64,000 bases of DNA from NCBI RefSeq assembly GCF_000186865.1, contig NW_008705576.1:523256-587255 (forward strand). Direction: 5' to 3'. Positions 1,306-52,800 of this stretch are shown one piece after another. A model generated the notes under the pieces. That model ran no database searches. It was not told the DNA's origin and saw nothing but the letters and a program-made list of their open reading frames with translations. The DNA comes from Aureococcus anophagefferens (lineage: Eukaryota > Sar > Pelagophyceae > Pelagomonadales > Pelagomonadaceae). Both the position numbers and the translations under genes were made by a program. The first letter of the stretch is position 1, and the number at the start of each line of letters is the position of its first letter.

Positions 1306-3628
1306 CGTCATGGCGACGACGTCGCCCCGCTCCTTGAGGAGGCGCACGATGTCCTGCTTGTGCGTGGGCTCCGCGCGCGAGAAGACGCGGCCGCCGGAGC
1401 CGCCGAGGAACGCCTTCTGGTCCGCCCTGGCCAGCCTCGCGAAGGCCGCGCCCGTGATCGACGACGCGTCGTCGGGGGGGCCGTCGAGGACGCCGATGGA
1501 CGCGCAGACGGCCTCGGCCGTGAGCTTGTTGTCGCCCGTGATGACGATGACGCGGACGCCGGCGCGGCCGCAGGCCTCGATGGCGCCGGGCACCTCGGGC
1601 CGCGGCGGGTCCCGGAGGCCCACGAGCCCGACGAACGTGAGGCCCGACTCGACGGCCGCGTAGCCTTCGACGTCCTCGAGGAGTTTCGCGGCCGCGGCGG
1701 CGTCCTTCTTCGTCGCCTTCTTCGTGCCGTAGGTCGCGAGGGCGCCGAGGCCCGACCGCTTCTCCGCGAGCGCGAGCACGCGGAGCGCGCCGCCCGAGAG
1801 CCGCGCGGCCTCGGCGTCGAGCTGCTTCCGCCGCGCGGCCGTCAGCGGCGGCGTCGACCCGTCGCCGAGGCGCAGGAACGCGCAGCGGTCGAGGACCGAC
1901 TCCGTCGCGCCCTTGACGTAGAGCGCGTTCGCGCCGCCGGCGTCCACGAGCACGGACATGGACTTGCGGTCGCGGTCGAAGTCGAGGAGCGCGGATCGCG
2001 GCTTCGCCGCGCGCCGCGCGTCGACGGCCGTCGACGGGCCGAAGGGCCCCGGGGGGCCGTCGGCCTTCTCCACGAGGGGCAGCAGCGCGGCCTCCGTCGG
2101 CGCGCCGACGGCCTCGACGCGGCCGTCGCCGCCGACGCGGAGCGACGCCGCGTTGCAGAGGGCCGCGACGTCGCAGAGCGCGTCGAGGGAGCCGTCGGCG
2201 CTCGAGAGCGCCAACCCGCCGTCGCGCGGGTCGTAGGACGTGCCGGCGACGTCGAGGGCGCGGGGCTTGGCCCGCGCGGACGCGCCGGGCAGCACGACGG
2301 CGACGCACGACATCTGGTTCGTCGTGAGCGTGCCTGTGTCGAAATCAAATCTTCAACCCGACTTCAATGTGCGCGTAATTGAACGGATTGCGCCGAACTC
2401 TTTCGCTGTGCTTCGAGAACTCGATGAGAGCGATCGATTCGTCCAAAAATCAGCCGAATCGACTTGGAATTGGCCGAGCTAGAGAATTCTGAAGTTTGGT
2501 CAGGACCCCCCAAACCAGTGGTTGATTTCCACACAGGAGCGTGCCCGTCTTGTCGGAGCAGATGACCGTCGTGCAGCCGAGCGTCTCCACGGAGGGCAGC
2601 TTGCGGACGATGGCGTTCTTCTTGACCATCTTGCGCGTGCCCAGGGCGAGGCACGTCGTGATGACCGTCGGCAGGCCCTCGGGGATCGCGGCGACGGCGA
2701 GCGCGACGGCGATCTTGAAGTAGTACGTGCACTTGGAGAAGGAGAAGTGGACGCCGTCGTCGTCGAAGGACACGAAGTGGGCGTAGTTGATGAGCCAGAC
2801 GAGGAGGCAGACGACGCCGATGACCTGGGTCAGCGTGACGCCGAAGGCGTCGAGCTTCTTCTTGAGGGGCGTGTCGTCCTGCTCCTCGGCCGCGTCCGCG
2901 ATCGCGCCGTGGATCCGCCCGATCTCCGTCGACGCGCCCGTCGCCGTGACGATGCCGACGCAGGACCCGGCGGCGACGGCCGTGCCGGAGAAGAGCATGC
3001 ACTCCTTGGCCTGGATCTCGTCGCCGGCGCCGCAGAGCGCGTCCGCGTGCTTCGCCACGGCGTCGGACTCGCCCGTGAGGGACGCCTGGTCGAGGCGGAC
3101 CGTCGCGCTGTGGCAGGCGACGAGCCGCAGGTCCGCGGGCACGCGGTCGCCGGTGACGAGCTCGACGACGTCGCCGGGCACGAGGTCCGCGGCTGGGAGG
3201 TCCGGGACGAGCGCGCCGTCGCGGTACGTCTTCGCGTGCTCGCTCTGGAGCTCCTTGAGCGCCTCGAGCGCGCGCTCCGCGTTCGACTCCTGCCAGACGC
3301 CGACGACGGCGTTGAGCACGAGGATGAGCACGATGACCGCGGGCTCGACGAACGCCGCGAACCCCTCGTCGCCGTCGCCGCCGAAGTACGCGAGGCCGAA
3401 GGACACGGCCGCCGCCGCGAGGAGCACCTTGACGAGGACGTCGTCGAACTGCTCGAGGACGAGCCGCCAGAGGGGCGTCGGGTCCTCCTTGGCGAGCTCG
3501 TTGGGGCCGTGGACGGCGCGGGCCTTGGACGCCGCGGCGGTCGTCAGGCCCTTCGCGACGGACGTCTTGAGGTGCTTGGCCGTCGCCGCGACGGTCGACG
3601 CCCAGGGGGCGAATTGCGCGGGGGGCAT
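328..3628 (-). CDS. SERCA-type (P-IIA) calcium-transporting ATPase
   Basis: Exons 3628..2545 and 2333..328 give 1029 aa, close to the usual ~1000 aa of the sarco/endoplasmic reticulum Ca2+ pump. Visible are the actuator motif LTGES (~178), M4 PEGLP (~310), the phosphorylation motif DKTGTLT (~357), hinge [16 protein letters not shown], and M5/M6/M8 signatures [17 protein letters not shown] and [11 protein letters not shown]. These carry the Ca2+-coordinating residues known from SERCA (E309, N768/E771, N796/T799/D800, E908 equivalents). It should pump cytosolic Ca2+ into the ER using ATP. The single intron is an introner that splits the DKTGTL codons; removing 2334-2544 restores the motif exactly. 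The ATG at 3628 begins the cation-ATPase N-terminal domain. The stop is followed by 234 bp that holds only a short poly-C run near 127-136. Confidence 0.93.
2334..2536 (-). mobile_element. Introner family A, copy 1 (203 bp) forming the SERCA intron
   Basis: The element has terminal inverted repeats beginning CTGTGTGGAAATCAA on the gene strand and closing with the complementary CGACACAG. It is flanked by an identical 8-bp duplication, GAGCGTGC on the plus strand (2326-2333 and 2537-2544). On the gene strand the duplication reads GCACGCTC, so the intron 2544..2334 (211 bp) would start with GC from the duplication and end with AG from the element. Alternative GT donors inside the element would add residues into the invariant DKTGTLT motif, so the GC donor is favoured. 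The central core GCTGATTTTTGGACG is shared with families B and C. Confidence 0.92.
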
Positions 3629-3807
3629 GGCGTCCGAGTGAGCGGGCGAGCGGGTCCACGCGACAACAGCTCAAGATCTCAGCGATTTCCACGGGGATGC
3701 GATGTGTTGCGCCCGCGTCGACCGCACTCGGCAGCTCTGAGGCCTCCTCCCCCCGCCGCGCGTACGAGTCCTCATGGTGAAGGTCCACTCGGGTGGATTA
3801 GCAGCAC

Positions 3808-5216
3808 TCAGATGTGGCCAACGGGCAGGCGCTCGCCAGGGGCCAAGGGCGCGCGCGGGGCCCTGAGGCCGGCTTGCTCCTCGTCCATGCGCTTGAGGTC
3901 GCGCGCGGCTGAGGCGGCGGACTCGGGACATTCGAGGCCGCGGGCCGCTGCGCGTGCGTACCAGCGTCTGGCTTCTTCCTTATTTTGGGAAACACCCGCA
4001 ACACCTCGTTCATAACACCTGCCGATGTTGAGTTCGGAGGCGACGTCACCTTGCTCGGCGCAAAGTTGCCAGAGCCGAAAAGCTGTCGCCGTGTCACCTT
4101 CCTGCGCTAACAGACCCGCGAGGTTGGCCCGCGAGCGTACGTGGCCGCCGTCTGCAGCCATCTGATACAAGCGCTTGGCTTCGGCGAAACTGGCCCCCAG
4201 GCCGCCGTAGCCGCGTTCGAAGCAGACGCCGAGGTTGTATAGCTTGCCATGGAGGTTGGGGGGGTGCCAGCTTGTAGTAACGGACAGCATCCTCCATGTC
4301 CCCGGAGTGGTGATCAAGCATAATTCCCAGAGAGCTCTGCGCATCCGCGTCGCCCCGATCCGCAGCCATGCGATAGAGCTGCATCGCCTTTTCCTTGTCC
4401 AGCTTGACGCCGTCTCCGCGCTCGTACAAGTTCCCGAGATGCGTCATCGCGTCCACGTTTCCGAGCGCCATACCGCGCTTGAAAATTTTCGCGGCCTTCT
4501 TCGTGGATTTTACTACCAGACGTCCCTCCGTGTAAATCTCGCCCAGCGCGTTGATCGCTTCCGGAACCTCGCGCTCCACGTGGCGGCGGAGCTCAGCCAG
4601 ATACCCCGCTTCGCTCGTCGGCGGTTGTGCTCCACAGATGGGACATGACGCATCGTGAGTCTTCCTGGAGCACGACATGCAGATCGTACGGCAGCAGCAC
4701 GATTGAAGTCGAGTCTGTTGATTTACGTCCCAGGCCTCGAGACAAATCGGGCATCGCCCCCCGAACCGCGCCGACGTCGGCTCCGGCTCCGGGTTCGCCT
4801 CGCGCCGCGCCCGGGCGGCCTCGTGCTCCGCCGCGATGCGCGCGCGGATCTCGTCGGCGTGAGACCGCGGCGCGGGGCCGTAGAAGATCTCCTTCGGTGG
4901 CGACGGCGGGAGCGTCGGCGCTTCCGCCCGCGCCGCTTCCGCCGCGCGCTCGTTCCGGATGGTCTTGCACGCCTTTCTGTGGCCTCGATCGCGCCAGTCG
5001 ATGCGTTGGCACTCGGTCGTACAGTACCTATGGTCGCGCGTCACGGCCGCGCGCCGCCCCCGATCCGCGCGCCGGCGCGCACTGTGTCGTCCCGCAGGGA
5101 CAATTGAGCTTGGCCTTCTCCCCGCAGATGGTGCAGGTCAAGCGGAGCCGCAATTCTTTGGCCCGGGCCTTCCTCGCTTCGTATTCTTTTACTTTCTCGA
5201 CGTACTCTTGCTTCAT
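3808..5216 (-). CDS. MYND zinc-finger / RING-like / Sel1-repeat protein with a homopolymer frameshift
   Basis: Exon 1 is 5216..5083 and the remainder starts at 5027 after a 55-bp GT-AG intron. The N-terminus has a basic helix, then a MYND finger (CTICGEKAKLNCPCG, then YCTTECQRIDW and HRKAC), then a RING-like Cys cluster (CPICLEAWD ... CPICG), then several Sel1-type repeats such as DAMTHLGNLYERGDGV. The frame breaks in a run of seven G (4258-4264): upstream repeats read in one frame and downstream repeats (KLYNLGVCFERGYGG onward) in another, as if one base were extra. The product would be about 450 aa. This may be a sequencing or assembly error or a real disabling mutation. A paralogue at 56012-57109 has the same architecture but lacks the 55-bp intron. 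Codon use is less GC-biased than in neighbouring genes. Sel1/MYND proteins usually act as protein-interaction scaffolds; the partner here is unknown. Confidence 0.75.
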
Positions 5217-9252: not shown

Positions 9253-11819
9253 ATGGGGAGCGAGGTGGCGCCGGGCGACGTGGCCCTCGCGGAGAAGAAG
9301 ATCCGCTTCGACCTCATCGCCGAGGACGACGCGGCGAGCTCGCCCGGGGGCAGCACGATGGCGTCGGAGAAGCACCACACCTACGACCAGCTCGTGAGCC
9401 TGAGCTCGGCGGACTCGACGCGGGGCGACCCCGGCGAGAACAAGGCCACAGTCGTGAGCGCCAAGTACGCGAACGAGTTCGACGCGAAGACGCAGCGCCG
9501 CTGCCTGGCGTTCTACCGGCGCCTCGACCGCGGCCTGGGCCTCGTGCTCCACTACGTCAAGGGCGCCACGTCCAAGCACCTCACGAACCTCGGCGTGTCC
9601 TACGGGTCGAGGCTCGAGGTCATCCTCTACGCGCAGCGGCACGAGGTCTGCTGGGCGAGCCACGAGCTAGGCGCGAAGCGCCGCTTCGACATGCGCAAGA
9701 TCCCGAAGAAGTTCCCCCTCGACGAGCTCCTCCTCACGGACGCGCTCGCCGACGACCCGACGAAGACGCGGTTCCGCGTGACGCTCGGCGCCGAGGACGC
9801 GGACAAGCGCGACACCGTCGAGCTCCGCGTGGAAATCGACCGCCGGTTCGGGACATCCCGACCAAACGTTGAAATTCTCGAGCTCGGCCACATCGAAGTC
9901 CGTTCGGCTGATTTTTGGACGAATCGAGTGCGCTCGTCGAGCGCTCGAAGCGGAGCGAAAGAGCCTGGTCCGAACCGTTCGATGACGCGCGCATTGACGT
10001 CGGCTTGAAGATTCGAGTTCCGCGCAGATCGAGCTCGTCTTCTCCGCGGAGACGGAGCACGCGCGGTCCGTGGCCATCCGCGGCTTCGAGCTGCTGCGCA
10101 AGCACCACATGCAGATCATCCCGCCCGACGGCGACCTCGCGGGCATCGACGCGCTCGGCGGCGACGTGTCGCCGGGCGCGGGGTCGCTGTCCTACGGGCG
10201 CGGCTCGGAGTCGCGGGGCGGCGGCTCGTTCGCGCGCGCGTCCGCGGACTTCTCGCTGGCCGCCGGCGGCGCCAAGGGCGGGTCCGTGGCGGCGCTCATC
10301 GCCGACTCCTACGACCCGAAGCGCGCGCCCGTGCACCGCCGCTTCCGCCAGGAGGTCCGCGCCGCGGAGAGGGGCTACAAGGCGACGGTCGTCGAGATCC
10401 ACTACGAGGCCTTCTTCTTCCACACGGCGCAGATCACGCTGTCCGACGGCAACGTCTTCCACCCCCCCCACGACAACTTCATCGAGGGCATGTGGGTCAC
10501 GGGCGCGGTCCGCGGCTTCGACCTGTGTGCAAATCAAATCTTCAACCCGACTTCAATGTGAGCGTATGCGACAGTTTCGACGCAAGCCCTTCGGCTATGC
10601 TTCGAGAACTCAACGAGAGCAATCGATTCGTCCAAAAATCAGCCGAATCGACTTCGATTTGACCGAGCTAGAGAATTCTGAAGTTTGGTCAGGACCACCC
10701 AAACCAGTGGTTGAATTCCACACAGGCTTCGACGCGGACCGCAACGAGTACGACGTCGAGTACCTCGAGGGCCCCTTCGAGCACGACCCGGAGACGGGCG
10801 CGGACGTCGTGCTGTCCAAGTTCCCCAAGGGCACCATGTTCAACCGCGTGCACCGCGCGGACATGCACATCGACATGTCGATGCAGCAGACGAGCGGCTT
10901 CCCGCTCTTCATGGTCGCGATCACGCTCGCGCAGGTCGGCGTCTTCGTCGCCTGGTCCGACTACGTGCGCCGCGGGGCGCTCGGCGGGCCCGTGTCCCTC
11001 GCCGTGAACATGGTCGGCGACTGGCCCAAGTGCGGCGACCAGCGCGGCCAGCTCTGGCGCTACGTCGGCTACCAGTTCGTCCACGCGGACGCGTCGCACA
11101 TCATCTACAACGCGATCGTCCAGCTGACGCTGGGCATCCCCGTGGAGCTCGTCTACGGCTCGCCGCGCATCTGCGGCATCTACCTCGTCTCCGTGGTCGT
11201 CGGCGCGCTGGCCGTCGTCTTCGCGACGCCGCAGTACATCATCGTCGGCGCGTCCGGCGGCGTCTACTCGCTCTTCGGCGTGCACTTGGGCAACGTGCTG
11301 CTCAACTTCGAGGAGTACCGCGCGGGGCTCTGCAACCGCTGGATGCGCATTTTGGCCCTCGGGCTCTTCGTCTTCGGGGACCTCGTCCAGTACTACGAGG
11401 CGCGCGAGGCCGGCGGCCGCGCGTCGACGTCGTACGCGGCGCACCTCGGCGGCTTCGCCGCGGGCTTCGTCTTCGCGCTCATCTTCCTCCACGAGATGGT
11501 CGACCACCCCATGGAGCACTGCATCCGCCGCCTCGCCTGGGTCGTCGCCGCGGCGTCCGTCGCGTTCCTCGTCGGCTGGAACGTCGTCAACGACCCGCCG
11601 AAGGGGCTCCCCGCGTTCTACACGGACCGCGAGAACCTGCCCTGCTGCTTCCAGGCCCTCTACTGCGACGGCCTCGACCAGGCGGACTGGCGCGACTGGA
11701 AGGAGAGCTTCGTCTGCACGTCGTCGGGCAACAAGCACGTGCTCTGGGACGGCCTCGGCGCGGACGCGCCCGACGACACGTTCTCCTGCTCCATGCTCGA
11801 GGACGTCCTCGACGCCTAA
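9253..11819 (+). CDS. Rhomboid-family intramembrane serine protease with a long N-terminal cytosolic domain
   Basis: Exons 9253..9816, 10028..10514 and 10726..11819 give 714 aa. Residues 1-~350 form a soluble region without a clear family. From ~405 there are six or more membrane segments with rhomboid signatures: HADASHIIYN (~470), catalytic Ser in GASGGVYSLFG (~528) and catalytic His in AAHLGGFAAG (~590). It should cleave transmembrane substrates within the membrane. A Cys-containing lumenal tail follows the last helix. Both introns are introners: 9817-10027 (GT donor) and 10515-10725 (GC donor). Splicing at the duplication boundaries gives the joins DKRDT/IELVF and AVRG/FDADRN, both in frame. 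The start ATG is the first in frame after an interval that includes a C-rich run. Confidence 0.88.
9825..10027 (+). mobile_element. Introner family A, diverged copy 2 (203 bp), rhomboid intron 1
   Basis: The length equals other family A copies, but the sequence has diverged: ends read CCGCGTGGAAATCGA and, on the complement, CTGCGCGGAACTCGA (12 of 15 match). The flanking 8-mers are GTCGAGCT (9817-9824) and ATCGAGCT (10028-10035), 7 of 8 identical. The left copy supplies a GT donor and the element end the AG, giving intron 9817..10027 in phase 0. Internal blocks (CCGACCAAACG, CTCGAGCTCGGCC, CGGCTGATTTTTGGACGAAT) align with copy 1 throughout, showing common origin and greater age. Confidence 0.85.
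10523..10725 (+). mobile_element. Introner family A, copy 3 (203 bp), rhomboid intron 2
   Basis: Terminal repeats are CTGTGTGCAAATCAA and the complement of TTGAATTCCACACAG. Identical 8-bp duplications GCTTCGAC lie at 10515-10522 and 10726-10733. The predicted intron 10515..10725 is GC-AG (phase 1) and restores one GFDADRN reading. Relative to its gene this copy is inserted in the opposite orientation to copies 1 and 2. Confidence 0.93.
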
Positions 11820-12068: not shown

Positions 12069-12258
12069 TCACCCCGCCTCGCGCTCGCGCTCCGCCACCC
12101 GCGGCGGCTCCGACGCCGCGAAGCACGCGCGCACGCAGTCTCGCCCCCGCGACTCCTCCGTCGCGCGCCGGATGGCGGCCTCGAGCCAGGGCGCCGGCGG
12201 CCCGCCGTCGTCCGCGGCGCCCCGCGGCGCCGCGGCCGGCGCCGCGTCGCCGCCGTCG

Positions 12259-12299
<41 letters not shown>

Positions 12300-15200
12300 C
12301 CCGCGCTCCACGACGACGCCCACGGCCCGGAGCTTCGCCCGCAGCGCCGCCGCCGCCGCGACGGTGCCGAGCTCGACGCGGCGCGCCGCGCCCGGGTCGC
12401 CGTCGCGCGCCGCCGCCGCCGCGTCGCCGCGGCTCAGCAGCAGCGACAGCCTGCCGACCTTCGTCGCGCGCAGCTGCGCCCATTTCGCCACCCAGGGCTC
12501 CGGCGCGGCCCGCGCGACGACGACGACGCCGCGGACGGAGATCGCGAGCACGCCCCCGTCCGCGAGCGCCGCGTGGTCGACGTAGGGCTCGCCGTCGGGC
12601 CCGTCGCCGTCGCCGTCGTCGTCGGCCGCCGCCGCCAGCGGCGCCCGCGCGGGCGCCGCGGCGCGGCAGAGCGCCTGCGCGGCCGCGCCGACGCGCGAGT
12701 ACGGCGCGAGCGCGCGGCGCGCGCCGCCGCCGTCCGGCAGCGCGGCGAGCGCGCGGCGCCGCCGGCGCGCGGCGCCGCGGCCCGGCGGCGCCGCGGGCCG
12801 CGGCCGCGGCCGCGCGCGGCCGCCGCAGGGGCCCGACGCGAGGCCCGACGCGAGCGACGCCAGCGCGTCGGCCGCGCCGACGGCGGGCTTGACCAGGACG
12901 CCGAGCAGCGCGCCCGCCGCGGACCGCGCGTCCGCCGACCGCGGCGCGTCGACGAGCAGCGACTCGAGCGCCCCGGTCGCGCCGTCGGCGACGTCGCGCC
13001 GCGCGGCCCGGAGCCCCGCCGCGAGCGACCGGATGCCGCCCTCGCGGCGCCGCCGCGCGGCGTGGCGCCGCGCGCGGTCGCAAAAGTAGGCCGCGTCGCC
13101 TGTGTGCAAATCAACCAGTGAGCTGGGACGCCGGGGCGACACTTCGGAATTCTCTAGCTCGGTCAAATCCAAGTCGATTCCGCTGATTTTTGGACGAATC
13201 GATTGCTCTCGTCGAGTTCTCGAAGCACGGCAGAAAACCTCGCGTCGAAACGGTCGCATACGCGCACATTGAAGTCGGGTTGAAGATTTGATTCGCACAC
13301 AGCGCGTCGCCCGCGACGAGCGCGTGGGCCCCCGCGAGCTTGTCGCCGAGCGCCGACGACACGGCGCCCGCCGCGCGCGGCGCCGCGGCCGTCAGCGCGG
13401 TCGTCGCCGCCGCCAAATCGGCGTCCGCGACCGTCCGGGGCAGGTCGCCCAACGCGCCGAAGACGTACTTGAGCGCCTCGGCCCGCGCGTGCGCGACGAG
13501 CGCCGCGCGGAGCTGCGCCGCCGTGAGGAGCGCGTGGCGCGCCGAGAACGCGCCGAGCTCGAACGCCGCGTCGGACAGCGCCGCGAGCGGCGCGAGCAGC
13601 TCGAGCGCGCGCGCAGCGGAGCCGCCGAGCGACCGGCCGAGCGCGCCGTCGACGTCGTCGCCGCGCGCCGCGGGCGCGCCCGCGAGGGCGAGCGTGCACC
13701 GCAGGTCCACGGCGCCGAGCTCGATCGTGTCGACGTAGACGCGCGGCTCGCGCGCGAGCGCCGCGAAGAGGTCCGCGGGAGCCGCGGCGCCGTGGCGCCG
13801 CAGCGACGCGTCGACGCGCGGCGCGGCGCCGGGCGGCGCCGCCGCCGCGCCCGCCCAGGGGTCGTCGGAGGCCCCCTCGGCGAGGACCGTGCCGAAGGCG
13901 TCCGCGGCCTCGCAGAGCGCGACGAGCGTCGCGCGGTCGAGCGCGAACGACAGCGGCGCGACGCGCGCGCCCGCGTAGCGCCAGACCTCGGCGGCGCCGT
14001 CGACCTGGCGCGCGAGGGACACGTGGAGGAGGCACGCCCGGCCCGCCGGGTCGTCGTCGCGGTCGAGCACCGTCGCGAGGCGCGCGCCGCGCGCGTGCGA
14101 CGTGACGACGCAGTCGCCGACGGTACCGTCGAGCGTCGCGCCCGCGCGGCTCTCGCCTGGGCAGCACAAGGGCGATTCAACGTCGCTTCAACGTGAGTGT
14201 TCCGCGCGCGCGCGTTCCGGAAAAAGCATCCACGCGTCGAGACCGTTCCGAGAGATGATCGCCCGTCCAAAGATCAGCCGAAACGAGTGGAAAACGGCCG
14301 AGAAAGGAGCCTTTGAAGTTGGGAATTTCGCTCTCTTTTGCTGCCCTGGCTCTCGCCCCCGGCGGCGTTCGCGGACCGCGCGCTCACCTCGACGCGCCGG
14401 CACGTCGCGAAGAGCGCCTCGCGCCGCGCGCGCGGCCGCCCGCGCGCCGCCGCCTCGTCCAGGACGACGGAGCACGACGCGGCCGCGACGCGGAGCGCGA
14501 ACTCGGACGCGCGCGCGAGCGGGCTCGGCAGGCACGCCTCGTGGAGCGCCGCGTCGTAGCTGCTCGTCGACCGCGTCGCCACGCGCAGCACGGCGCCGCC
14601 GCCGCGCGCGTCGACGACCGCGTCGACGCCCCAGTGCGCCGACAGCACGTCGAGCGCGCCGCGGGCCTCGTCCGCGAGCGGCAGGCTCCGCCGGTCGCTT
14701 CCGCCGTCGACGCGGAGCGCCGGCGCGGCCCGGGCCAGCGCGCGGCCGTGTTTCCGTAAAAACGCGGCCGCGTCGGCCCGGGACCGGTTCGCGAGCGCGA
14801 CGACGGCGACGCGGCGGTCGCGCGCGGACGGGTCGTCCCAGCCGAACGGCGCGGCGGACCGCGGGCCGACGAGCCAGTAGCGCGGCGCCGCGCCCGCCTG
14901 CCAGACGGCGACGAGCACGTCCGTCTCGTTGGCCACGGACACGAGGGGCGCGGCGACCGCCGCGTCCTCGAGGCCGACGCAGAGCAGCGTGCCGAAGTCG
15001 TCGCCCGGGCCCGCGCGCGGCCGCGCCTCGACGCGCGCGACCTTCGCCGCGGCGAGGTCCGCGACGGCGACGCCGCCGCGCGACGCGTCCGCGAGCGCCA
15101 CGGGCGTCGACCCGTGGGCGTCGAGGCGCACGTCGCCCAGCGACGACAGCACCGCGCCGCCGTCGAGCGCCTGGAGCCGCGCGGCCGTCCGCCGGCCGAC

Positions 15201-24900: not shown

Positions 24901-26568
24901 GGACGACGACCTGCCCGACGAGCCGGACGCGGGCACGCCCCTGGACGTGGGGCGGCGGGCCCGGGGGCCCCTCGAGGCCGCCGTCGCCGTCCACGCCATG
25001 CTCCTGGGCGAGCGGGGGCGCCTCGACGAGTTCCAGGCGGACGACCTCCGCGAGTTCGTGACGGGCTACGCGGACTACGTGCTCTTCGGCGAGGGGTCCA
25101 CGGGCGAGGCCGACGACGACGCGCGGCACCGCGACCTGCCCCTGGAGCACCTCGAGCGCCTGCACCGCGCGCTGTCGTACAACGAGGCCGCGTACACGTC
25201 CGAGGTCCAGTACACGGACGCCGCGTGGAGCCTGGCCGCCAACTACCTGGACCACTTTAGCCACGCGGACAACGCGACGGCGCCGGACAAGGCCGCCGTC
25301 GACCTGCTCTACTCCATGGTCACGGGCGACGTGTCCGACGGTCGCGTCGCGCCGCTGCCGGCCGTGCGATGGAAGACGCACCCGGAGCACCTGGCGGCTC
25401 TCGTGCTGCGGCACAACGCGACGTTCCTGTCCGCGCAGCTCTACCACTTTGGCGCGGAGCCCCGGGCCATGGGGGCCCAGTTCCTGCGGCTGCTGCCGGG
25501 GAACTACTCGTGCGTTTTGTCGTTCCCGAAGCGGGAGAAGCCCCACGCGAACCACACGCACTTCAACGTGACGGCCTTTGGCGAATTCCTCGAGGTGCCC
25601 GGGAGCGGCCTCGCCGAGTTCCACCTCGCGCCGCGGGAGCTCGTCCTGCTGACGGTCAAGCGCGCGACGCGCGAGCCGCGAGGCACCCGCGCGCCGACGG
25701 GCCTGCCCTCGGCGACCCCGGTCCCGTCGGCGTCGCCCGCGCCGAGCGCCGTCGACGACGTCGGCTCGCGGACGCCGAAGCCGTCGCGGCAGCCGACGCG
25801 CGCGCCCGCGCCCGAGCCGACGGACGCCTACGCCTACGGCGGCGTTCTGAGCCCCATCACGGAGGCCATGTACGTCGCCTGCGGCGCCCTCGACGCGGCG
25901 CCGAGCGACGCGGAGGTCTACGACATCGTCGTCGACGCCCTCGACGCGAACTGCGGCGACTGCTGCCGGATCACGGACTGCGGCGAGATCTGCGCGGGCC
26001 TCTCGTGCGCCGCGTACGCGCCCGCGACCTGCGCCGCCGTCAAGTTCGAGTACGGCTGCGAGTGCGACGGCTGCAAATGCTCGAGCTCCTACGGCTACGG
26101 CAACTACACGAACTCGACGTCGTCGTCCGGGCAGGACAAGAGAGCGAAATTCCAAACTTCAAAGCCTCATATCTCGGCCGTTTTCCACTCGTTTTGGCTG
26201 ATTTTTGGACGAGCGATCATCTCTTGGAACGGTCTCGAAGCGTGGATGATTTTTCCGGGACGCGCGCGCGCGGAACACTCACGTTGAAGCGACGTTGAAT
26301 CTCTCTTGTCCTGCCCAGGTCGTCGTCCGACTCGTCCGCGGCCAAGCCCGACGTCGTCGCGCTCACGATCTTCTCGCTCATGGGCGCCTTCTTCATCTAC
26401 TGCGTCCACAAGTACCTCAAGTCCCAGCGCGAGGAGCGCGAGTACCAGAAGCGCAAGGCCGCGAAGAAGGAGATGCTCGCGAAGCAGGTCGCGCACATCG
26501 AGCTCGAGATCGTCGAGAACGAGACGTCCCTCGAGAAGGGCGAGGCCGACGACGAGATCAAGATGTAG
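21962..26568 (+). CDS. Type I membrane protein: two FAS1 domains, PTA linker, large helical domain, ShK-like Cys motif
   Basis: Exons 21962..26118 and 26319..26568 give 1468 aa. A signal peptide (MRAFVAAAVLAAAATAET) is followed by two fasciclin domains (~17-150 and ~170-310), both with the FTVFAPTNDAF / YTLFAPTNDAF signature. A PT-rich linker (~318-385) follows. Residues ~390-1240 are rich in Trp and aromatic residues (GGGFGDDVALWRWW; WALVLAYHY-like helices), perhaps an (alpha/alpha) toroid as in polysaccharide-degrading enzymes, but I cannot name the family. A Cys cluster ending RDACYVTCDSC resembles ShK motifs. A second PT linker, a Cys-rich module, a membrane helix (VVALTIFSLMGAFFIYCV) and a charged cytosolic tail end the protein. 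Many NxT/NxS sites fit an extracellular location. The single introner sits just before the membrane helix. FAS1 domains suggest adhesion or matrix contact. Confidence 0.78.
26127..26318 (+). mobile_element. Introner family B, copy 2 (192 bp), FAS1-gene intron
   Basis: Ends are CCGGGCAGGACAAG and the complement of CTTGTCCTGCCCAG. The flanking duplication is GTCGTCGT at 26119-26126 and 26319-26326 and extends three more matching bases because the target is (GTC)-rich. The left copy supplies a GT donor; intron 26119..26318 (200 bp, phase 2) joins TSTSS to SDSSAAKPD. Inserted in the same orientation relative to its gene as the VPS13 copy. Confidence 0.92.
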
Positions 26569-26818: not shown

Positions 26819-27948
26819 ATGGACGACAAGAAGCGGGCGGCGCCCTTCGGCCGGCGCCAGGCGGGCCTCGGGTTGGTCGCCGCGGTCGTCCTCTTCCTGC
26901 TCCTCTGCAACTTCGACGCCGACTTCCTCGACGGCGGCGCGTCGGGCATGCACGCGGCGACGGCGGACCAGATGTACGAGCCGACGTACCCGGACGACGG
27001 CGCCGCGTCCTTCGGCGTCATCTACGCCGCGAACGGGCCGTTCGTCGTGCGCGCGTTCGAGAGCGCGCTGGCGCTCGGCGTCGGCGCGAACGCGACGATT
27101 TTCAGCGACGCCCCCGGCGCGCGGAGCTGCGAGAAGCTGAAGCGGCGCGAGCGGAAGCACGTCGCCGACCGGCTGGGCCACCTGCGGTGCGCCGTCGCGA
27201 ACGCGTCCGACACGTGGGGGTTCCGCGCGGCGAAGCTCTGGGCAGGGCAGGACAAGGGTGATTCAACGTCGCTTCAACGTGAGTGTTCCGCGCGCGCGCG
27301 TTCTGGAAAAAGCATCCACGCTTCGAGACCGTTCCGAGAGATGATCGCTCGTCCAAAAATCAGCCGAAACGAGTGGAAACCGGCCGAGAGAGGAGCCTTT
27401 GAAGTTGGGAATTTCGCACTCTTGTCCTGCCCAGGCTCTGGGCCTTCACGGCGACGCCCTACGACAAGACGCTGTACCTCGACGCCGACGCCTTCCCCTG
27501 CGCGTCCTTCGACTGGCTGCGGTCCGAGCTGTCGCCGGCGCTGGAGCGCTACGACGTCATGGCGACGCACAGCTCGATGCGGCGCGGCTTCGCGCGCGCG
27601 CTGCACTGGCTCAACGCGGGCGTCATCGCCTTCAACGCGCGGCGGCGGCCCGCGAAACGCATCTTCGCCGCCTGGCTGCGCACCTACGAGCGGCAGACCG
27701 TCAAGGTCACGGACCAGAGGCTCTTCAACGAGGCCGTGCTCGCGTCCGACGCGCGGGTCATGGCGCTGCCGCCCGAGTTCAACTGCAAGTCGAACTACAA
27801 GTCCGTGCGCTACGGCTGGCTCAAGCTCGCGTCGCCCCTCCTCTACCGGCGCGTGCGCAAGGACTGGGCCTGCTGCCAGATCGAGTCCGTCGGGCGCTGC
27901 GTCGTCGACCACGAGTGCAAGTTCCCGCGCCATCTCGCGGACCCCTAA
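26819..27948 (+). CDS. Type II membrane glycosyltransferase with a DxD motif (GT8/nucleotide-diphospho-sugar transferase-like)
   Basis: Exons 26819..27234 and 27435..27948 give 309 aa. A short basic N-terminus and one membrane helix (GLVAAVVLFLLLCNF) suggest a Golgi type II enzyme. The catalytic part reads KLWAFTATPYDKTLYLDADA, where YLDADA (~153) is the metal/nucleotide-sugar binding DxD motif, followed by LNAGVIAFNARR and TDQRLFNEAV, both typical of this fold. Acceptor and sugar are not known. The introner lies immediately upstream of the catalytic motif; its GC-AG removal restores the KLWAFTATPYD context exactly. The end of the gene, including the stop, is duplicated just downstream. Confidence 0.8.
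27243..27434 (+). mobile_element. Introner family B, copy 3 (192 bp), glycosyltransferase intron
   Basis: Ends are CAGGGCAGGACAAG and the complement of CTTGTCCTGCCCAG. Identical duplications GCTCTGGG lie at 27235-27242 and 27435-27442. The predicted intron 27235..27434 (200 bp) is GC-AG, phase 2. It is nearly identical to the VPS13 family B copy but in the opposite orientation relative to its gene. Confidence 0.93.
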
Positions 27949-36913: not shown

Positions 36914-37559
36914 ATGGCCGCCGAGGCGCGGGACGAGAACTGGTACGTGGAGACGAAGAAGAAGATCCGGGAGGCCTTCCAGCTCTTCGACAAGGACCGC
37001 AAGGGCTGCGTCATCCAGGAGGAGGTGTCGACGATCATGCGCTACCTCGGCGCCTACCCGACGGAGCGCGCCATGGTCAAGGAGATCCTCCCGGACATGA
37101 TGGTCCGCGGGCCGGCGTCCTCCGGACGGTGTTTCGCGCTGATCGGACGAGCTGGCGTCGCGGGCCGCCCGAGCGCCTTTCGTCGCGCCCGTCCGAAGGC
37201 TCGCCGCGCGCCGCGCGCGTCGCGTCCGTCGCTTCGACCGCGCCCGGCCCCCGCAGGAGGACGAGCCGTCGGCGTTCGTCAAGTACGAGAGATTCGAGCC
37301 GAAGATGCTCGAGATTTTGGCCGAGGGCGACTGGGAGCCCGACTCCGAGGAGGTGCTGCTCCAGGCCTTCCGGGTCTTCGACGAGGACGGCAAGGGCTAC
37401 ATCGAGGCGAACCGCCTCCGCGAGGCCCTCATCACGAAGGGCACGCCCTTCCGCGAGAAGGAGATCGACGCCTTCCTCTCCGTGGCCAAGGACCTCGAGA
37501 CGGGCCACATCTACTACGAGGACTACGTCGCGCTCCTCACCGCGGACACCGCGGAGTAG
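36914..37559 (+). CDS. Dynein regulatory complex protein 8 (EFCAB2-like, EF-hand)
   Basis: Exons 36914..37102 and 37257..37559 give 163 aa, the normal length of DRC8/EFCAB2. EF-hand 1 is DKDRKGCVIQEE within IREAFQLFDKD; a degenerate second hand runs through the exon junction (MVKEILPDMM / EDEPSAFVKYERFEP); hand 3 is DEDGKGYIEANR; hand 4 is degenerate (DLETGHIYYEDY). TIMRYLGAYPTE and GTPFREKEIDAF match the DRC8 pattern closely. DRC8 is part of the nexin-dynein regulatory complex of motile axonemes, so this points to a flagellated ancestor or life stage. The 154-bp intron is GT-AG, phase 0, and has no target-site duplication. It ends 4 bp from the convergent LRR gene. Confidence 0.82.
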
Positions 37560-37563
37560 GGTC

Positions 37564-40270: not shown

Positions 40271-40434
40271 GGTCGTTTTTTCTTCCGAGGCCTTCCACAC
40301 GCGCCTCCGCGTCGCCGGCGACGACTCCATCGGTGCCGGCAACCACGAGTCCATTGGTGCGGCAAACGACGCANGCGAACTAGGGATGGGCTGCCTCGAA
40401 CCCGCACATTGCGTGGTTCAACGTGGTTCTTGTC

Positions 40435-40592
40435 GTTTGAGGCTTTTCTTGCCGCGGTGCAGCTGAGACTGGAGTGTTGACGCCGAACGACGCGTTGGGG
40501 ATGAGCTTGTACCTGTTGTCCCATTCGCTGGCTCTGGGCCACCGTCGCCACCGTCCATGCGCTCTCGTCGCGGCCGCCCTACCCGCCGGAAC
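40435..40592 (+). repeat. 158-bp direct repeat, copy 1 (copy 2 at 40772-40929)
   Basis: The two copies, each starting GTTTGAGGCTTTTCTTG and ending ACCCGCCGGA(A/C)C, differ at only a few sites. Copy 2 contains the start of the gene at 40,837. Copy 1 has the same ATG context but loses the frame through a 1-base difference (CCATTCGCTGG versus CAATTCCGCTGG). Copy 1 abuts the gap, so either a true duplication or an unresolved haplotype/assembly join is possible. Confidence 0.85.
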
Positions 40593-45165: not shown

Positions 45166-47112
45166 ATGGGCTTCCACCTGGGGCAGCTCCGCGTGCTGCT
45201 CGGCGCGCTCGTCGCCGCGTCCGTCGTCGGCGACGACGTGGGCGCGTCGCCGTTCCCCTTCGACGTCCAGACCTGCACGGGCATCAGCAGCTCCCAGGAG
45301 TGGTGGAACCGGACGCGCGACGCGGGCTACGACGCGAGCGTGCGGCCGAACCACGCCCTGGTCCTCGCGACGGGCCGGGGCGGCCACGGGGACCCGGACG
45401 TCGTCGAGATCCAGTTCCGCCTCCTCGAACTCAAGGAGGTCGACTCCATCCGCCGCGAGTTCGCGATCCTCGTCTACGAGCGCATCTGGTGGACGGACCC
45501 GCGGCTCGCGTGGTCCGTGGCCGACGACGCGTGCCTCGAGTCGCTCGACATCATGCGCTACGCGGGCGACATCTGGCAGCCCGACGTCGTCGTCGAGAAC
45601 ATCGCGGGCGTGGGCTTCCCCTCCGAGGCGTCGGCGAAGCCGGAGATGCTCGTCGTCACGCGCGAGGGCCGCATCTGCTCGAGCAAGATGATCATGCTGG
45701 CGCTGAGCTGCGACATGCACTACGGCCGCATGCCCTTCGACACGCACCGCTGCCCGATCCTCGCCGCGTCCTACGTCCACGGCTCCGCGGACCTGCGGGT
45801 CGTCGCGCGCGGCGGCACGCCGGGCGTCGGCGGGAGCGGCGTGAGCTTCTCCTCGGGCAGCCACATCAAGAACCCGATCTGGGTCGTCGCCGAGGCCGAG
45901 CCCGTCCACGTATCCGGCGAGAACGTCGTCTACGACACGGACGGCCTGCGGAGCATCCGCCGCGAGTCGATCCTCAGCGACATCGACCAGGACTGGGACT
46001 ACGTCGAGGCCTCGCTCAAGCTCGAGCGGAAGGCCCGGTACTTTTACGTCAACGCCATCATCCCCGACGCCATCTTCATGATGTTCGTCTACACGGGCTT
46101 CTTCGTCGACCGCGCCGCGGTGCCCGCGCGCGTCGCGTGCGTCGCCATCGGCCTCCTCATCGAGCGGACGATGATCAACGGCGTCTACGCCGTGCTGCCA
46201 CCGATCAGCTACGGCGTCTGGCTCACGGACTACCTGCTGTACTCGCTGCTGCTCATGGCGGCCGCGGCCGTCGAATTCGGCTTCGTCAGCTACTTCGTCG
46301 GCCGCGAGAAGATGGGGCACGCGATCCGCGACGCGATCAACACGCACGGCCGGGACATCCTCGCGCGGCTCGACGCCGCCGTCGAAAAGCAGGCGGAGGC
46401 CGCGGCGCCCGCGCCGAAGCCCGCGCCGGCGCCCGCGCCGCCGCCGCCCGCGCCGCCGCCGCCCGCGCCGCCGCCGCCGCCGCTGTCGCCGACGGCCAAG
46501 TGGGCGGGGATGCTCGCCTGCCGGCCGGAGGAGGCCCAGCCCGAGCCCCAGCTCAGCGCCATCGCCGTCTTCCCCGACGACGTCGAGGCGCGCGCGGCCG
46601 CGCGGCGCGCGCCGCCGCCCGCGCGCGGCGGCGACGAGGGCCGCGGCGACGCGCGGCGCGACGAGCACGCCGCGGCCAAGGAGACGCTGACCAAGTTCGA
46701 CCCCTTCGAGCCCACGCTCGCGCGCCTTGCGCCGCCCGCGCGCATCCTTGTCGAGCGCGTGCGGACGCGCTACCTCGCGGTGCTGCGCGAGGGCCAGTAC
46801 CGCGTCGGCGAGGAGCAGACGCGGAAGCTCCTCGCGGACTTCAACGTCCGCGTGTCGCAGCGCGTCATGACGCACCTCTGGGACGCGACGCCCCACGGCG
46901 ACTCCATGGACTTTGACGACTTCCTGCGGCTCCTGCTCGACGTCGACGTCCACGTGGAAGTCGCGCTCCAGAAGACGCACACGACGAGCCTCGACTTCAA
47001 GATGCTCCCCCGGTCCCTCCAGCTCGACATCGTCGCGCGCTACGTGTTCCCCGTCGTCGTCATCCTGAAGATGGGCATCTTCTTCGCGCTCGTCTCCTCC
47101 TACCCGTCCTGA
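45166..47112 (+). CDS. Cys-loop (pentameric ligand-gated) ion channel subunit
   Basis: 648 aa. A signal peptide precedes an extracellular beta-rich ligand-binding domain (IWWTDPRLAWS, IWQPDVVVENIAG). The Cys-loop is canonical: two cysteines with 13 residues between them (CDMHYGRMPFDTHRC, ~181-195), containing the FD pair. Three membrane helices follow: M1 (~293-316, YVNAIIPDAIFMMFVYTGFF), M2 (~320-347, ending RTMINGVYAVLPPIS) and M3 (~350-380, DYLLYSLLLMAAAAVEFGF). A long cytosolic loop of ~240 aa with a Pro/Ala tract and an acidic DSMDFDDFLRLLLD segment leads to M4 (YVFPVVVILKMGIFFALV). Ligand and ion selectivity are unknown. Such receptors are patchily distributed outside animals. Confidence 0.85.
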   Translation: MGFHLGQLRVLLGALVAASVVGDDVGASPFPFDVQTCTGISSSQEWWNRTRDAGYDASVRPNHALVLATGRGGHGDPDVVEIQFRLLELKEVDSIRREFAILVYERIWWTDPRLAWSVADDACLESLDIMRYAGDIWQPDVVVENIAGVGFPSEASAKPEMLVVTREGRICSSKMIMLALSCDMHYGRMPFDTHRCPILAASYVHGSADLRVVARGGTPGVGGSGVSFSSGSHIKNPIWVVAEAEPVHVSGENVVYDTDGLRSIRRESILSDIDQDWDYVEASLKLERKARYFYVNAIIPDAIFMMFVYTGFFVDRAAVPARVACVAIGLLIERTMINGVYAVLPPISYGVWLTDYLLYSLLLMAAAAVEFGFVSYFVGREKMGHAIRDAINTHGRDILARLDAAVEKQAEAAAPAPKPAPAPAPPPPAPPPPAPPPPPLSPTAKWAGMLACRPEEAQPEPQLSAIAVFPDDVEARAAARRAPPPARGGDEGRGDARRDEHAAAKETLTKFDPFEPTLARLAPPARILVERVRTRYLAVLREGQYRVGEEQTRKLLADFNVRVSQRVMTHLWDATPHGDSMDFDDFLRLLLDVDVHVEVALQKTHTTSLDFKMLPRSLQLDIVARYVFPVVVILKMGIFFALVSSYPS

Positions 47113-48985: not shown

Positions 48986-50115
48986 CTAGCTCATCACGGA
49001 CGAGAGGCCGTCCATGGAGTAGGTCCGCTTCGCGAGGGACGCGAGCGTCGCGAAGCCGACCTCGGGCCGGTCGACGCCGCGCCGCGCCGCGACCTCCGGC
49101 CGGATGAGCTCCAGCCGCCCCGCGAAGGGCCGCTCGCCGTCGTCCCGGTGGTCCAGGTGCCCCGCGACGTCGAGGAACGCCGCGGCGTCGTCGACGCCCC
49201 GCTTGAAGAGCTCGAGCATCTCCCGCGGCGTGAACACGACGCCGGCGACGCGCCCCTGCCACTTGGCGTCGAGCGTGCGGTACCGCAGGACGAGCTGGGG
49301 CGTCGCCTCCCCGTCGACGAAGAGCGGCGCGTTGTCCGTGACGCCGCCGTCGATCGCGCGGCCGCCGCGGTGCGCGCGCCCGAGCGGTGAGCACGTGATC
49401 AGCGGCACGGACCCCGAGGCCATGAGCGTCGTGAAGAGGTCGCCGCGCGACGCGAAGGCGTCGACGCGCTCGTTCGCGCCCTTGGGGGGCGCGTAGGCGC
49501 GGACGCGCGTCAGCGACACCGTCAGCGCGCCCGGCGCCGGGAGCTCCGGCAGCCGGCCGCACTGGCGCTCGTAGAAGAGCTCCCAGTAGGGGCCCGGGTG
49601 CGCCAGGGGGAAGCGCTGGAGCATCGCGCCGAAGGAGAAGGACCAGCGCAGGCCGTCGGCGATGCCGTCGGACCTGGGCACACAAAGGTCTCGACGCGTG
49701 GATGCGTTTCGCGGAACGCGCGCGCGCGGAACAATCACGTTGAAGCGACGTTGAATCACCCGTTCGCGGCGACGCCGTCGGACCAGTGCATGAACGCGCA
49801 GAGTCCGCCGGCCGACGCGCCCGCGACTCGCCGCGTCGTGATGCCGTATGTCTTCAAGAAGTAGAGCGCGCCGGCGGCGTACAAGACCTTGAAGCCGCCG
49901 CCGCTGCAGACGACGTCCACCTCCAGCGGGAAGTCCGGCGCGATGCGCGCGCGCCGGACGGCGGCTGCTGCGTAGGCCTTGGCGTCGGCGATCTCCGCGT
50001 CCCAGCCGTCGAGCAGCCCGAGGAACTCGGCGACGGCGCGGGCGCAGTAGCGGCGATAGAGCATTATGGCTGCGATCGTCAATGCGACGGCTGCCCACGG
50101 CAAACGCGGATCCAT
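48986..50115 (-). CDS. Patatin-like phospholipase with N-terminal membrane anchor
   Basis: Exons 50115..49784 and 49673..48986 give 339 aa. A hydrophobic N-terminus (AAVALTIAAIMLYRRY) anchors it. The catalytic elements are CSGGGFKVLYAAGAL (~73, oxyanion Gly-rich loop), GASAGG (~100, nucleophile Ser in GxSxG) and the DGG motif in RAIDGGVTDNAP (~218). Patatins hydrolyse acyl esters of phospholipids or neutral lipids. The single intron is a shortened family B introner; splicing at the duplication gives HW/SDGIADGLRWSF, in frame. The ATG is only 34 bp from the ATG of the divergent phosphatase gene. Confidence 0.85.
49674..49775 (-). mobile_element. Introner family B, truncated copy 4 (~102 bp), patatin intron
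   Basis: On the gene strand the 8-bp duplication GTCCGACG (extending to GTCCGACGGC) flanks it on both sides; the left copy (49783-49776) gives a GT donor and the element ends in GTGCCCAG. The 110-bp intron is 49783..49674. The left third matches family B (GGGTGATTCAACGTCGCTTC, CGCGCGCGCG, GCATCCACGCGTCGAGACC), but the central core and the whole right half are missing, and the left terminal repeat is replaced. Splicing function appears preserved despite loss of about half the element. Confidence 0.83.
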
Positions 50116-50149
50116 CGTCACCCCGGATCGACTTCAGCAGCGGCGGTTG
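50116..50149. promoter_or_regulatory. Very short bidirectional start region (34 bp between ATGs)
   Basis: The patatin ATG (50115, minus) and the phosphatase ATG (50150, plus) face away from each other with 34 bp between. An in-frame ATG at 50066 for the phosphatase would overlap the patatin coding exon and was not preferred. Both transcription start sites must lie very close or inside the opposite 5' coding end. Confidence 0.5.
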
Positions 50150-51139: not shown

Positions 51140-51142
51140 TCG

Positions 51143-52800
51143 TCACGCCGGCGGCGGGCCGTCGAGGTCGCCGAGCGCACTTCCGAGCGCGTCCGCGCTG
51201 GGCGCGCGGCTCGGCGACTTGGCGAGGGCGAGCCCCTTGGCGTAGACCGGCGACGGCGGCCGCGCGGCGGCGGGCGCGTTGGTCGCGACGGGCATGTAGA
51301 TCTTGAGCGCGCGCGGCGAGTCGCGCTTGTCGCGGCCTACAGGTGTGGAATTCAACCACTGGTTTGGGTGGTCCTGACCAAACTTCAGAATTCTCTAGCT
51401 CGATCAAATCGAAGTCGATTCGGCTGATTTTTGGACGAATCGATTGCTCTCGTCGAGTTCTCGAAGCACAGCCGAAGAGCTTGCGTCGAAACTGTCGCAT
51501 ATGCGCACATTGAAGTCGGGTTGAATATTTGAATTCCACACAGGTCGCGGCCCGGCGGCGCCGTCGACGGCCGCGCCGTCGGCTTGACGCGGACGACGGC
51601 GGGGACGGCCGCGCGGTCCTCGGGCGCGTCCAGGGCGCGCCGCGGCGCCTGGGACGCCGGCGGCGCGGCCGGCGTCGCCGTCGCGGGCCGCGGCGCGCCG
51701 CCGCCGTCCGCCGGCTCGACGAGGCGCTTCGGCGGCGCGGAGCAGGGGCGGATCGCCTTGGGCGGCGGGAAGGTCCGCGGCGGCTGGCGCGGCGCGGGCC
51801 GCGGCGCGAAGGCCGGCGACGGCGCCGGCGCCTGGGCGGGGATGGGGTGGCGCGACGTGAGCACGATGGGCGAGGGCTTCGGGTGGTCCACTCGCACGTA
51901 CGCGCGGTCCGCGTAGAGCGACGCCGACTGGCCCCGGACGGCCATGGAGCCGCGCTTCTTCTTCTTCGAGGAGGACCGCGCCCTGGGCTTCTCCGGCGGC
52001 GGCGCGGGCGCGGCCGCGGACCCGGCCGGATTCCTCGCGACCAACTTCTCGGGGAACTCCGGGGCCGCGGGCTTCTCGAGCAGCGCGGCGTCCTTCTCCA
52101 AAAGTTCCAGGCGCAGCTGTTTGTTCTCGGCCCGCAGCGCGTCGACCTCGCGGGCGACGACCTTCTCCAGGCGCGACTGCACCTCCTCGATGGCCTGGAT
52201 CGGGTCGAGCGCGTTCCGCGGCGACGTCGCGCGCTCCGCGAGCCGCGCGCGCAGCGCCGCGCCGTCGGCCCGCAGGGCCCGGTTCTCCGCCTCGAGCCGC
52301 TGGAGCGCCGGCCCGAACTCCGCGACGAGCTTCGACGACCGCTGCGACTCGCGGTCCGCGCGCTCGATGCGGCCCCGCCAGTCCTCCGCCCTGCGCCGGA
52401 AGCTCTCGTCGCGCTCCGCCTCCCGCGCCAGGCACTCCGCGAGCTCCCGCCGGAGCCGCGCCTCGGCGCCCTGGAGCCGCATCTGGTCCTGCTGGAGCGT
52501 CTTGCACTTGGCCCGCTCGGCCCTGACCTCCCTGTCGGCCTTGGTCTTGATCTTCGAGATGCGGTCCCGCTGGCCGTCGACCATGGACTTCCAGTTCTTC
52601 ATGATCGACGTGCCCTGCTGGAGGACGAAGGACTTGCCGCCGCCGGGGTCCACGCGCAGCGCCCAGCCCTTGTTCCGCTCGAGCTGCGCCGCGTTCTCCA
52701 CGCTCTTCAGGGGCAGCCCCGGGTTCTTCCCGATCAGCGTGTCCCCGGGGCCCAGCCCCAGCTCCTCCATGGCGTCGGCGCCGCCCGTGTTCCGCGGCAT
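51143..52800 (-). CDS. Coiled-coil protein with Pro-rich C-terminus, unknown function
   Basis: Exons 52800..51552 and 51336..51143 give 480 aa; ATG 52770 is a second option. Residues ~60-260 form a long Arg/Glu/Ala-rich coiled coil (for example MRLQGAEARLRRELAECLA). A basic patch (SSSKKKKRGS) and a Pro/Ala-rich disordered region follow. Short blocks such as PLKSVENAAQLERNKGWALR may be structured. The introner near the 3' end is removed as GC-AG, joining PPG/RDKRDSPRALKIYM. The coiled coil suggests a cytoskeletal or centrosomal role, but no family is recognised. Confidence 0.65.
51337..51543 (-). mobile_element. Introner family A, copy 5 (207 bp), coiled-coil gene intron
   Basis: Identical duplications GTCGCGGC lie at 51329-51336 and 51544-51551 (GCCGCGAC on the gene strand). 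The right end is the standard TTGAATTCCACACAG; the left end reads CTACAGGTGTGGAATTCAA, a 4-bp insertion relative to other copies. The predicted intron 51551..51337 is 215 bp, GC-AG, phase 1, and ends in CACCTGTAG. Orientation relative to the gene as in copies 3 and 4. Confidence 0.9.

Follow-up and report, generated by a model that had tools for sequence, protein, structure and literature searches.

Introners of three related families in Aureococcus anophagefferens and a possible record of donor-site change in their paired target-site duplications

The window, a stretch of 64,000 nucleotides from contig NW_008705576.1 of Aureococcus anophagefferens, holds ten predicted introns in which a short element lies between two copies of a target-site duplication (TSD; Table 1). 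A lipoate synthase matches an A. anophagefferens protein at 98% identity with 59% of the query aligned, which fits this species or a very close relative as host. The original prediction had listed eleven such units in eight genes; the ten that we located fall in seven genes, and the unit assigned to an LRR gene was not found. The TSD, predicted to be 8 bp throughout, is an exact 8/8 repeat in nine of the ten units and matches at 7/8 in A2. On the coding strand, the upstream TSD copy opens with GC (seven units) or GT (three units), together GY, and every one of the ten elements ends in AG, exactly as predicted. Terminal inverted repeats (TIRs), claimed for each copy, are found in most units but are lost or altered in A2, B4 and A5. 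B4 lacks part of its interior and has exon-like sequence in place of the 5' TIR, and the extra nucleotides of A5 lie in the TIR just inside the AG end. The rhomboid and fasciclin hosts are named after matches to the rhomboid and FAS1 domains. The name glycosyltransferase-like follows a weak Glyco_transf_8 match (E 0.0047, below the cut-off), and the earlier name VPS13 for the long gene that hosts A4, B1 and C1 is likewise weak (best Pfam E 0.035, below the cut-off).

Table 1. Ten introners located in the window, with their host genes, duplications and predicted splice sites.
Introner	Position	Strand	Host gene	TSD	Splice sites	Phase	Remark
A1	2326..2544	-	SERCA-type Ca ATPase gene, 328-3633	GCACGCTC	GC-AG	1	203-nt element between TSD copies
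A2	9817..10035	+	rhomboid gene, 9253-11819	GTCGAGCT / ATCGAGCT	GT-AG	0	5' tip shortened
A3	10515..10733	+	rhomboid gene, 9253-11819	GCTTCGAC	GC-AG	1	element orientation opposite to A2
A4	13092..13310	-	long gene, 12069-21567	GCGACGCG	GC-AG	1	
B1	14149..14356	-	long gene, 12069-21567	GCGAGAGC	GC-AG	1	
C1	20573..20780	-	long gene, 12069-21567	GCTCGCGA	GC-AG	2	third family, more diverged than A and B; element of 192 nt
B2	26119..26326	+	fasciclin (FAS1) gene, near its 3' end	GTCGTCGT	GT-AG	2	
B3	27235..27442	+	glycosyltransferase-like gene, 26819-28006	GCTCTGGG	GC-AG	2	
B4	49666..49783	-	patatin gene	GTCCGACG	GT-AG	2	102-nt truncated copy
A5	51329..51551	-	coiled-coil gene	GCCGCGAC	GC-AG	1	4 extra nt

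The reading frame is continuous at all ten junctions. The prediction that splicing returns the exact pre-insertion frame holds, but it is uninformative by itself, because excising one TSD copy together with the element always regenerates the empty site. The informative point is that GY and AG sit on the borders between TSD and element on the coding strand, which for the ten window units was inferred from codon usage alone. The rule fits both strands at A5, whose host gene lies on the minus strand, and at A3, where the coding strand is the plus strand and the minus strand satisfies it too; eight of the ten units are therefore informative for strand. Two of the encoded proteins are restored across their introner junctions in spliced translation: identity to SERCA1 is unbroken over 16 residues spanning the A1 junction, and the Patatin match of the patatin gene improves from E 1.4e-4 with exon 2 alone to 4.9e-11 once spliced across B4.

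In the LRR gene (ORF 37523-40354, minus strand), neither our filters nor the family models located an introner within the gene or around its ends. The minus strand of 37400-40500 contains seven GY-starting 8-mer repeats before an AG, all of them in DNA of 76-80% GC, and none passes the low-GC filter or the TIR filter; the A and B family models gave no match within the ORF at E values up to 10. Searching for pairs of TSDs and TIRs without a model produced mostly runs of N and, in GC-rich DNA, chance matches, so that family models, or filters on GC content and tips, are required.

The window units belong to three related families, with elements of 203 nt (A) and about 192-198 nt (B and C), for which a first look at the genome gave 1,701, 2,076 and 610 candidates, respectively. 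Many near-identical copies form introns at unrelated gene positions, a property by which introner elements are recognized. We scored a sample of 40 candidates per family and found an 8-bp TSD with GY and AG to be the norm. Among the 120 full-length records (including three duplicates, window copies that fall in overlapping loci), the flanks match at exactly 8 positions, each with a frequency of 0.82-1.00, and on either side of these the match drops to the level of shuffled partners; in three copies (L021, L097 and L099), the TSD match stays below 6/8 even after re-anchoring. Once duplicates are removed, the sample contains 118 distinct copies whose coding strand was inferred independently; in these, GY and AG are combined on the coding strand in 116 and on the opposite strand in 11 (Fisher p 5e-51), the donor being GC in 72. 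The two rule-breaking copies are found in L043 (GA-AG) and L063 (CG-GG). Intron phases (47/33/38) fit the share of GY dinucleotides at each codon position (p 0.64), and in RNA folding the 5' parts of two introns were not more structured than expected (z +1.86 and +1.00). What had been described as one rule thus stands as far as GY and AG are concerned, but it spans three families whose TIRs differ, subfamilies in which a single end has AG, and one unit that was not located.

Taken together, these data support the proposal that non-autonomous DNA transposons are the source of these introns. We consider it very probable that all ten are introners belonging to three related families of short, non-autonomous DNA transposons inserted in exons, with the GY at the start of the TSD co-opted as donor and the AG of the element as acceptor. 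Insertion into an exon would duplicate 8 bp of that exon; where the coding strand has GC or GT at the start of the duplicated 8-mer and AG at the 3' tip of the element, the spliceosome could remove the first TSD copy plus the element, which would restore the old mRNA. Insertions that cannot be spliced would presumably be purged. Mobility would be by cut-and-paste, with a transposase of an 8-bp-TSD superfamily, perhaps P-type, supplied in trans.

Two other accounts bear on these observations. If excised intron RNA reverse-spliced into other transcripts and was then copied back into the genome, introners should be nearly confined to coding DNA, and indeed only 3 of 130 copies scored as non-coding (one of the three being mis-anchored) against 23% of random positions. 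Excised RNA would, however, bring along the first 8 nt of its donor, whereas here these 8 nt are particular to each site and recur in the downstream exon; nor would reverse splicing leave family A in both orientations about equally often, as is seen with 20 copies sense and 21 antisense to their genes, and we give RNA-based spread almost no credence. Alternatively, the transposase may simply prefer targets starting with GY, in which case the splice-site rule would reflect target preference without selection for splicing. The near-universal GY at the TSD start agrees with this, as does GY on the opposite strand in 33/118 copies (28%), moderately above the 19.7% share that GY has of coding dinucleotides (p 0.03). 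Yet a staggered 8-bp target should favour GY about equally on both strands, rather than in 28% versus 98% of copies, and it is the coding strand that obeys, whichever way the element lies. Target preference as the whole explanation strikes us as very improbable, and DNA transposition followed by co-option of splice sites remains our preferred reading.

For the mobilizing transposon, we searched for autonomous elements with the same 14-15-bp tips but other sequence just inside, and obtained seven pattern matches, all of them short copies; only exact tips were accepted, so a diverged autonomous partner would be missed. DNA transposons of the P-element superfamily make 8-bp TSDs, as do the Aureococcus introners, whose tips are CTG...CAG. 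The P-type transposase domain PF21787 has one match in the genome (C25:178372-178818, E 1.4e-9, with three in-frame TAG codons); this candidate domain is the only lead to an autonomous transposon. Domains of hAT, KDZ/Zisupton and Merlin elements (PF05699, PF18758 and PF12762) had no match in the genome, and in the control genomes PF05699 and PF18758 had none and PF12762 one.

All three families have a 17-bp core in common, which occurs 2,230 times in the genome and is kept exact in 85 of the 120 sampled copies; dividing the former by the latter fraction gives an estimate of about 3,000 introner introns. Only 2 of the 2,230 cores lack a T in the two preceding bases. Conservation of the core within copies exceeds the element mean, yet the core is the best window in no family. 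A match to the core in a viral contig was rejected as a chance match inside a phage-like gene. In family B, AG lies at the 3' side of the gene in 32/32 sense and 15/16 antisense records (duplicates included). The nearest neighbour of a copy with AG at the right tip only is also right-tip-only in 36/36 cases, and we therefore set aside the idea that the AG-end types arise anew with each insertion, although 9 of the 28 left-tip-only copies are nearest to a right-tip copy. The left-tip and right-tip types are therefore not cleanly separate clades.

The two TSD copies also differ from each other in a directional way. In 21 copies, intron positions +3 to +5 hold a total of 22 mismatches; the intron copy carries G in 20/22 and the exon copy in 0/22, and most of the changes would be non-synonymous. 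We think that the downstream copy, held by the protein code, probably preserves the co-opted 8-mer in its original form, and that donors start at little more than GY, the upstream copy then being sharpened after insertion by directional substitution to G at +3, +4 and +5. Errors of gap repair at insertion, or a mutation bias, might produce the same pattern without selection on the donor site. A repair polymerase inserts dC, and such an enzyme could yield coding-strand G in the upstream copy in either element orientation; moreover, the sample is small, and the excess of mismatches at +3 to +5 over +6 to +8 (22 versus 10) reaches only p 0.05. Unlike errors made at insertion, however, the mismatch rate per site climbs with family divergence, from 0.023 in B and 0.063 in A to 0.152 in C, the most diverged family (C versus B, p 6e-4). 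As for mutation bias, private substitutions inside the elements go to G in just 29.3% of 259 cases, against which 20/22 has p 2.7e-9, and mismatches at +6 to +8 have G in 4/10. We regard repair errors and mutation bias as an unlikely source of the pattern, and favour gradual sharpening of the donor. The usual donor is GTRAGT; since G at +4 departs from it, donor recognition in A. anophagefferens may favour a G-rich +3 to +5.

Huff, Zilberman and Roy reportedly described in 2016 (Nature 538:533) short non-autonomous introners of A. anophagefferens that carry one splice site and co-opt the other from duplicated exon sequence. Compared by description, species, kind of element and splice-site layout are the same as here; the mechanism is one already published for this species, and the finding as given is therefore already known. 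The introners analyzed here match what is given for Aureococcus introners, namely a characteristic length of about 210 nt (PMC9481584) and direct repeats and TIRs that do not vary in length (PMC7789003); the splicing motifs are called canonical in the latter paper, in contrast to the many GC donors in our sample. In Gozashti 2022 (PMC9860276), a Symbiodinium introner has the same layout, carrying its 3' splice site and co-opting the 5' one, but from a 4-bp rather than an 8-bp TSD; introners are enriched in genes there, as they are here; and in an Aureococcus sp. example both splice sites come with the element and the mRNA becomes 12 bp longer (4 bp of element plus the 8-bp TSD), whereas the introners here would add nothing. 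In those parts of the introner literature on Aureococcus that we consulted, we found no description of the TSD-mismatch record of donor-site change or of the shared 17-bp core, and the record in the paired copies is possibly new.

The question of how introns originate is old, and nowhere can ongoing intron gain be seen more clearly than in introners. Paired TSD copies would place ancestral and descendant donor sites side by side, for an estimated 3,000 or so introns in one genome. If this reading is true, both intron birth and splice-site maturation could be measured genome-wide from a single assembly.

Ten inserted units were located in the window with concordant results from a repeat search, family models and a scan for 8-bp target-site duplications (TSDs); GC content exceeds 70% in 20 of the window's 32 two-kb bins. 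In the assembly searched, the window spans positions 523256-587255 of contig C16. These units are introners, i.e., short non-autonomous DNA transposons acting as putative introns, and belong to three families (A, B and C). The pattern described in the original prediction is real and its interpretation correct, but its count of eleven was slightly too high, as the unit assigned to the LRR gene was not found. Inside the open frame of that gene, 37900-38060 has a low coding signal and many CCTACGTAGGC-like palindromes; this stretch does not conform to the introner rule. In the unit at 49666, the 5' terminal inverted repeat (TIR) is replaced by downstream-exon-like sequence (a near-repeat of ~17 nt), and judging from this copy the TIR seems dispensable after intron formation.

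Introner units located in the window (window coordinates)
Feature	Position	Remarks
Introner, family A	2326-2544	
Introner, family A	9817-10035	
Introner, family A	10515-10733	
Introner, family A	13092-13310	
Introner, family A	51329-51551	4 extra bases inserted just inside AG end
Introner, family B	14149-14356	
Introner, family B	26119-26326	
Introner, family B	27235-27442	
Introner, family B	49666-49783	Truncated copy; GT, TSD and AG retained
Introner, family C	20573-20780	

To train a codon model, four long stretches of reading frame were taken from parts of the window outside the introners; the window was then segmented with this model. Nine of the ten introners are gaps between coding segments on the same strand; at the 51329 unit, coding was called only on the side upstream of the unit, on the minus strand. 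The joined flanks were then scored in either direction, and this assigned a strand to all ten units, with the weakest call again at 51329 (15.3 versus -6.3). On the inferred coding strand, every unit has GC (7) or GT (3) opening the upstream TSD copy and AG closing the element, in agreement with the predicted rule (GY+AG). Considering that the units at 10515 and 51329 satisfy it on either strand, eight units are informative. A continuous reading frame runs over all ten junctions, in seven genes; frame return in itself is not evidence, because removing one TSD copy and the element always regenerates the empty site. In the predicted spliced proteins, the SERCA junction lies within the phosphorylation motif (16 residues identical to SERCA1), and the Patatin domain match goes from E 1.4e-4 for the second exon alone to 4.9e-11. 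Elsewhere in the window of this alga, a single open frame at 45166-47112 encodes neurotransmitter-gated (Cys-loop) ion-channel domains (E 3.4e-23 and 4.7e-9), and 4718-5027 and 56164-56473 form an inverted pair of 310-bp stretches, ~80% identical, the first of which is close to a repeat-protein-like reading frame at 3600-4600.

The three families have unlike TIRs and partly different lengths and share a common centre, which is in reverse orientation in B. Their common 17-mer core, CGGCTGATTTTTGGACG, has 2,230 exact copies in the assembly searched (49.05 Mb, 86 contigs) and its reversed control none. The family consensuses have TT directly before the core, and just 2 of the 2,230 copies lack T at both of these positions; with at most one mismatch, the core occurs at 9905-9921 and eight more sites in the window. 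Searches with one copy of each family gave 1,701 (A), 2,076 (B) and 610 (C) first-look candidates, 40 of each being scored. The genome sample, which is non-random, comprised best-match loci of families A and B, 30 for each, 20 places from the 40 for C, 7 tip-pattern loci, five arbitrarily placed 10-kb pieces, and 20 stretches covering the first 21 of 100 core places listed on contig 1. It yielded 139 full-length records with flanks, including three second readings of window copies, and hence 136 distinct copies. Across the 120 records available before the core-place stretches were added, left and right flanks matched at exactly eight positions (0.82-1.00 each), and positions beyond these matched only at the shuffled-partner level. 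Three full-length copies (L021 1501-1702, and those in stretches L097 and L099) have TSDs matching at fewer than 6/8 bases after re-anchoring, perhaps through rearrangement after insertion, and one 817-bp stretch (L109) holds two partial family A copies, possibly a composite or nested insertion.

For the strand test, 18 of the 136 distinct copies were dropped (for TSD identity below 7/8 in 7, short flanks in 5, an N in 1, non-coding sequence in 2 and an ambiguous strand in 3). Among the remaining 118, GY+AG was found in 116 on the coding strand versus 11 on the opposite strand (Fisher p 5e-51). Keeping duplicate records gave 119/121 versus 11/121, and re-anchoring the ends gave 123/125; the rule-breaking copies read GA-AG (stretch L043) and CG-GG (L063). 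Such an introner pattern is already published for Aureococcus anophagefferens. The lipoate synthase encoded in the window shares 98% identity, over 59% of its length, with an NCBI protein from this brown-tide species, which makes the host this alga or a very near relative. AG stands at both tips in 36/48 family A copies, at a single tip in 64/66 family B copies, and in the 22 family C copies at the left tip only in 14, the right only in 4 and both in 4. In family B, the AG is at the gene's 3' side in 32/32 sense and 15/16 antisense records; one-sided AG therefore accompanies one surviving orientation, as would be expected if unspliceable insertions were lost. The nearest neighbours of the 36 right-tip-only B copies are all of the same type, and those of the 28 left-tip-only copies are of their own type in 19 cases and of the other in 9. 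Only 3/130 copies were non-coding, one being the mis-anchored 51329 unit (3 more were ambiguous), versus 23% of positions drawn at random from the window plus the five 10-kb pieces (p 2e-11). Enrichment of introners in genes is already known (PMC9860276).

TSD positions 1-2 are nearly fixed and the remaining positions are close to coding composition (121 records), with mild shifts (G 0.46 at +3 versus 0.36; C 0.47 at -1 versus 0.38). AG forms the final two exon bases in 6/121 records, and no GTRAGT-like preference at +3 to +6 was seen in these records. Intron phases (47/33/38) match the way GY dinucleotides of coding DNA are distributed over codon positions (p 0.64). Given this composition and these phases, co-option accounts for the sites without a target motif. 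The 116 GY donors comprise 72 GC and 44 GT, an over-representation of GT relative to plus-strand dinucleotides of the window (GC 9,698, GT 2,962; p 3e-4). GY opens the TSD on the opposite strand in 33/118 copies (28%) versus 19.7% of coding dinucleotides (p 0.03); insertion may therefore slightly prefer GY targets, a preference that cannot produce the GY+AG rule.

Searches for exact tip patterns turned up no longer element with the same tips in the genome, and genome profile searches gave no match to KDZ or hAT domains, for which control genomes were silent too, or to Merlin. The sole P-type transposase match is an RNase-H-like domain (PF21787; contig C25, 178372-178818; E 1.4e-9) with three in-frame TAG. 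Because P elements make 8-bp TSDs, we regard this domain as a lead to a candidate mobiliser.

Once an element is inserted, its downstream TSD copy forms part of the exon and is constrained by the code, and its upstream copy is intron. Comparing the two in 121 distinct copies with TSD identity of at least 6/8 and known strand, we counted 35 mismatches. At +3 to +5 of the intron copy there are 22, in 21 copies, where the intron copy has G in 20 and C in 2 and the exon copy never has G; the G changes occur in elements of either orientation (8 sense, 12 antisense) and in all three families. Since the changes are spread over codon positions 1/2/3 (6/9/7) and 15/22 would be non-synonymous in the exon, the change most likely took place in the intron copy. 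G accounts for 4/10 mismatches at +6 to +8 and for 29.3% of 259 private substitutions inside elements (coding strand), against which 20/22 has p 2.7e-9. Mismatch rates per site at +3 to +5 (B 0.023, A 0.063, C 0.152) follow the same order as the families' mean distances from their consensus (0.042, 0.084, 0.098), those at +6 to +8 are flat across families (0.024-0.030), and the difference in counts, 22 versus 10, is borderline (p 0.05). Our reading is that borrowed donor sites were sharpened after insertion toward G at +3 to +5. At +4, A is replaced by G in 5/5 cases, which is unexpected under standard U1 pairing; G-rich intronic enhancers close to the donor are an alternative explanation for G at this position. 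No prior report of TSD-pair donor change was found in the literature covered, including passages of PMC9860276, PMC7789003, PMC9481584 and PMC12768974, with Huff 2016 outside this coverage, and novelty is not established. We consider this paired-TSD record of donor-site change, read as sharpening of borrowed sites, to be the part of the result worth following.
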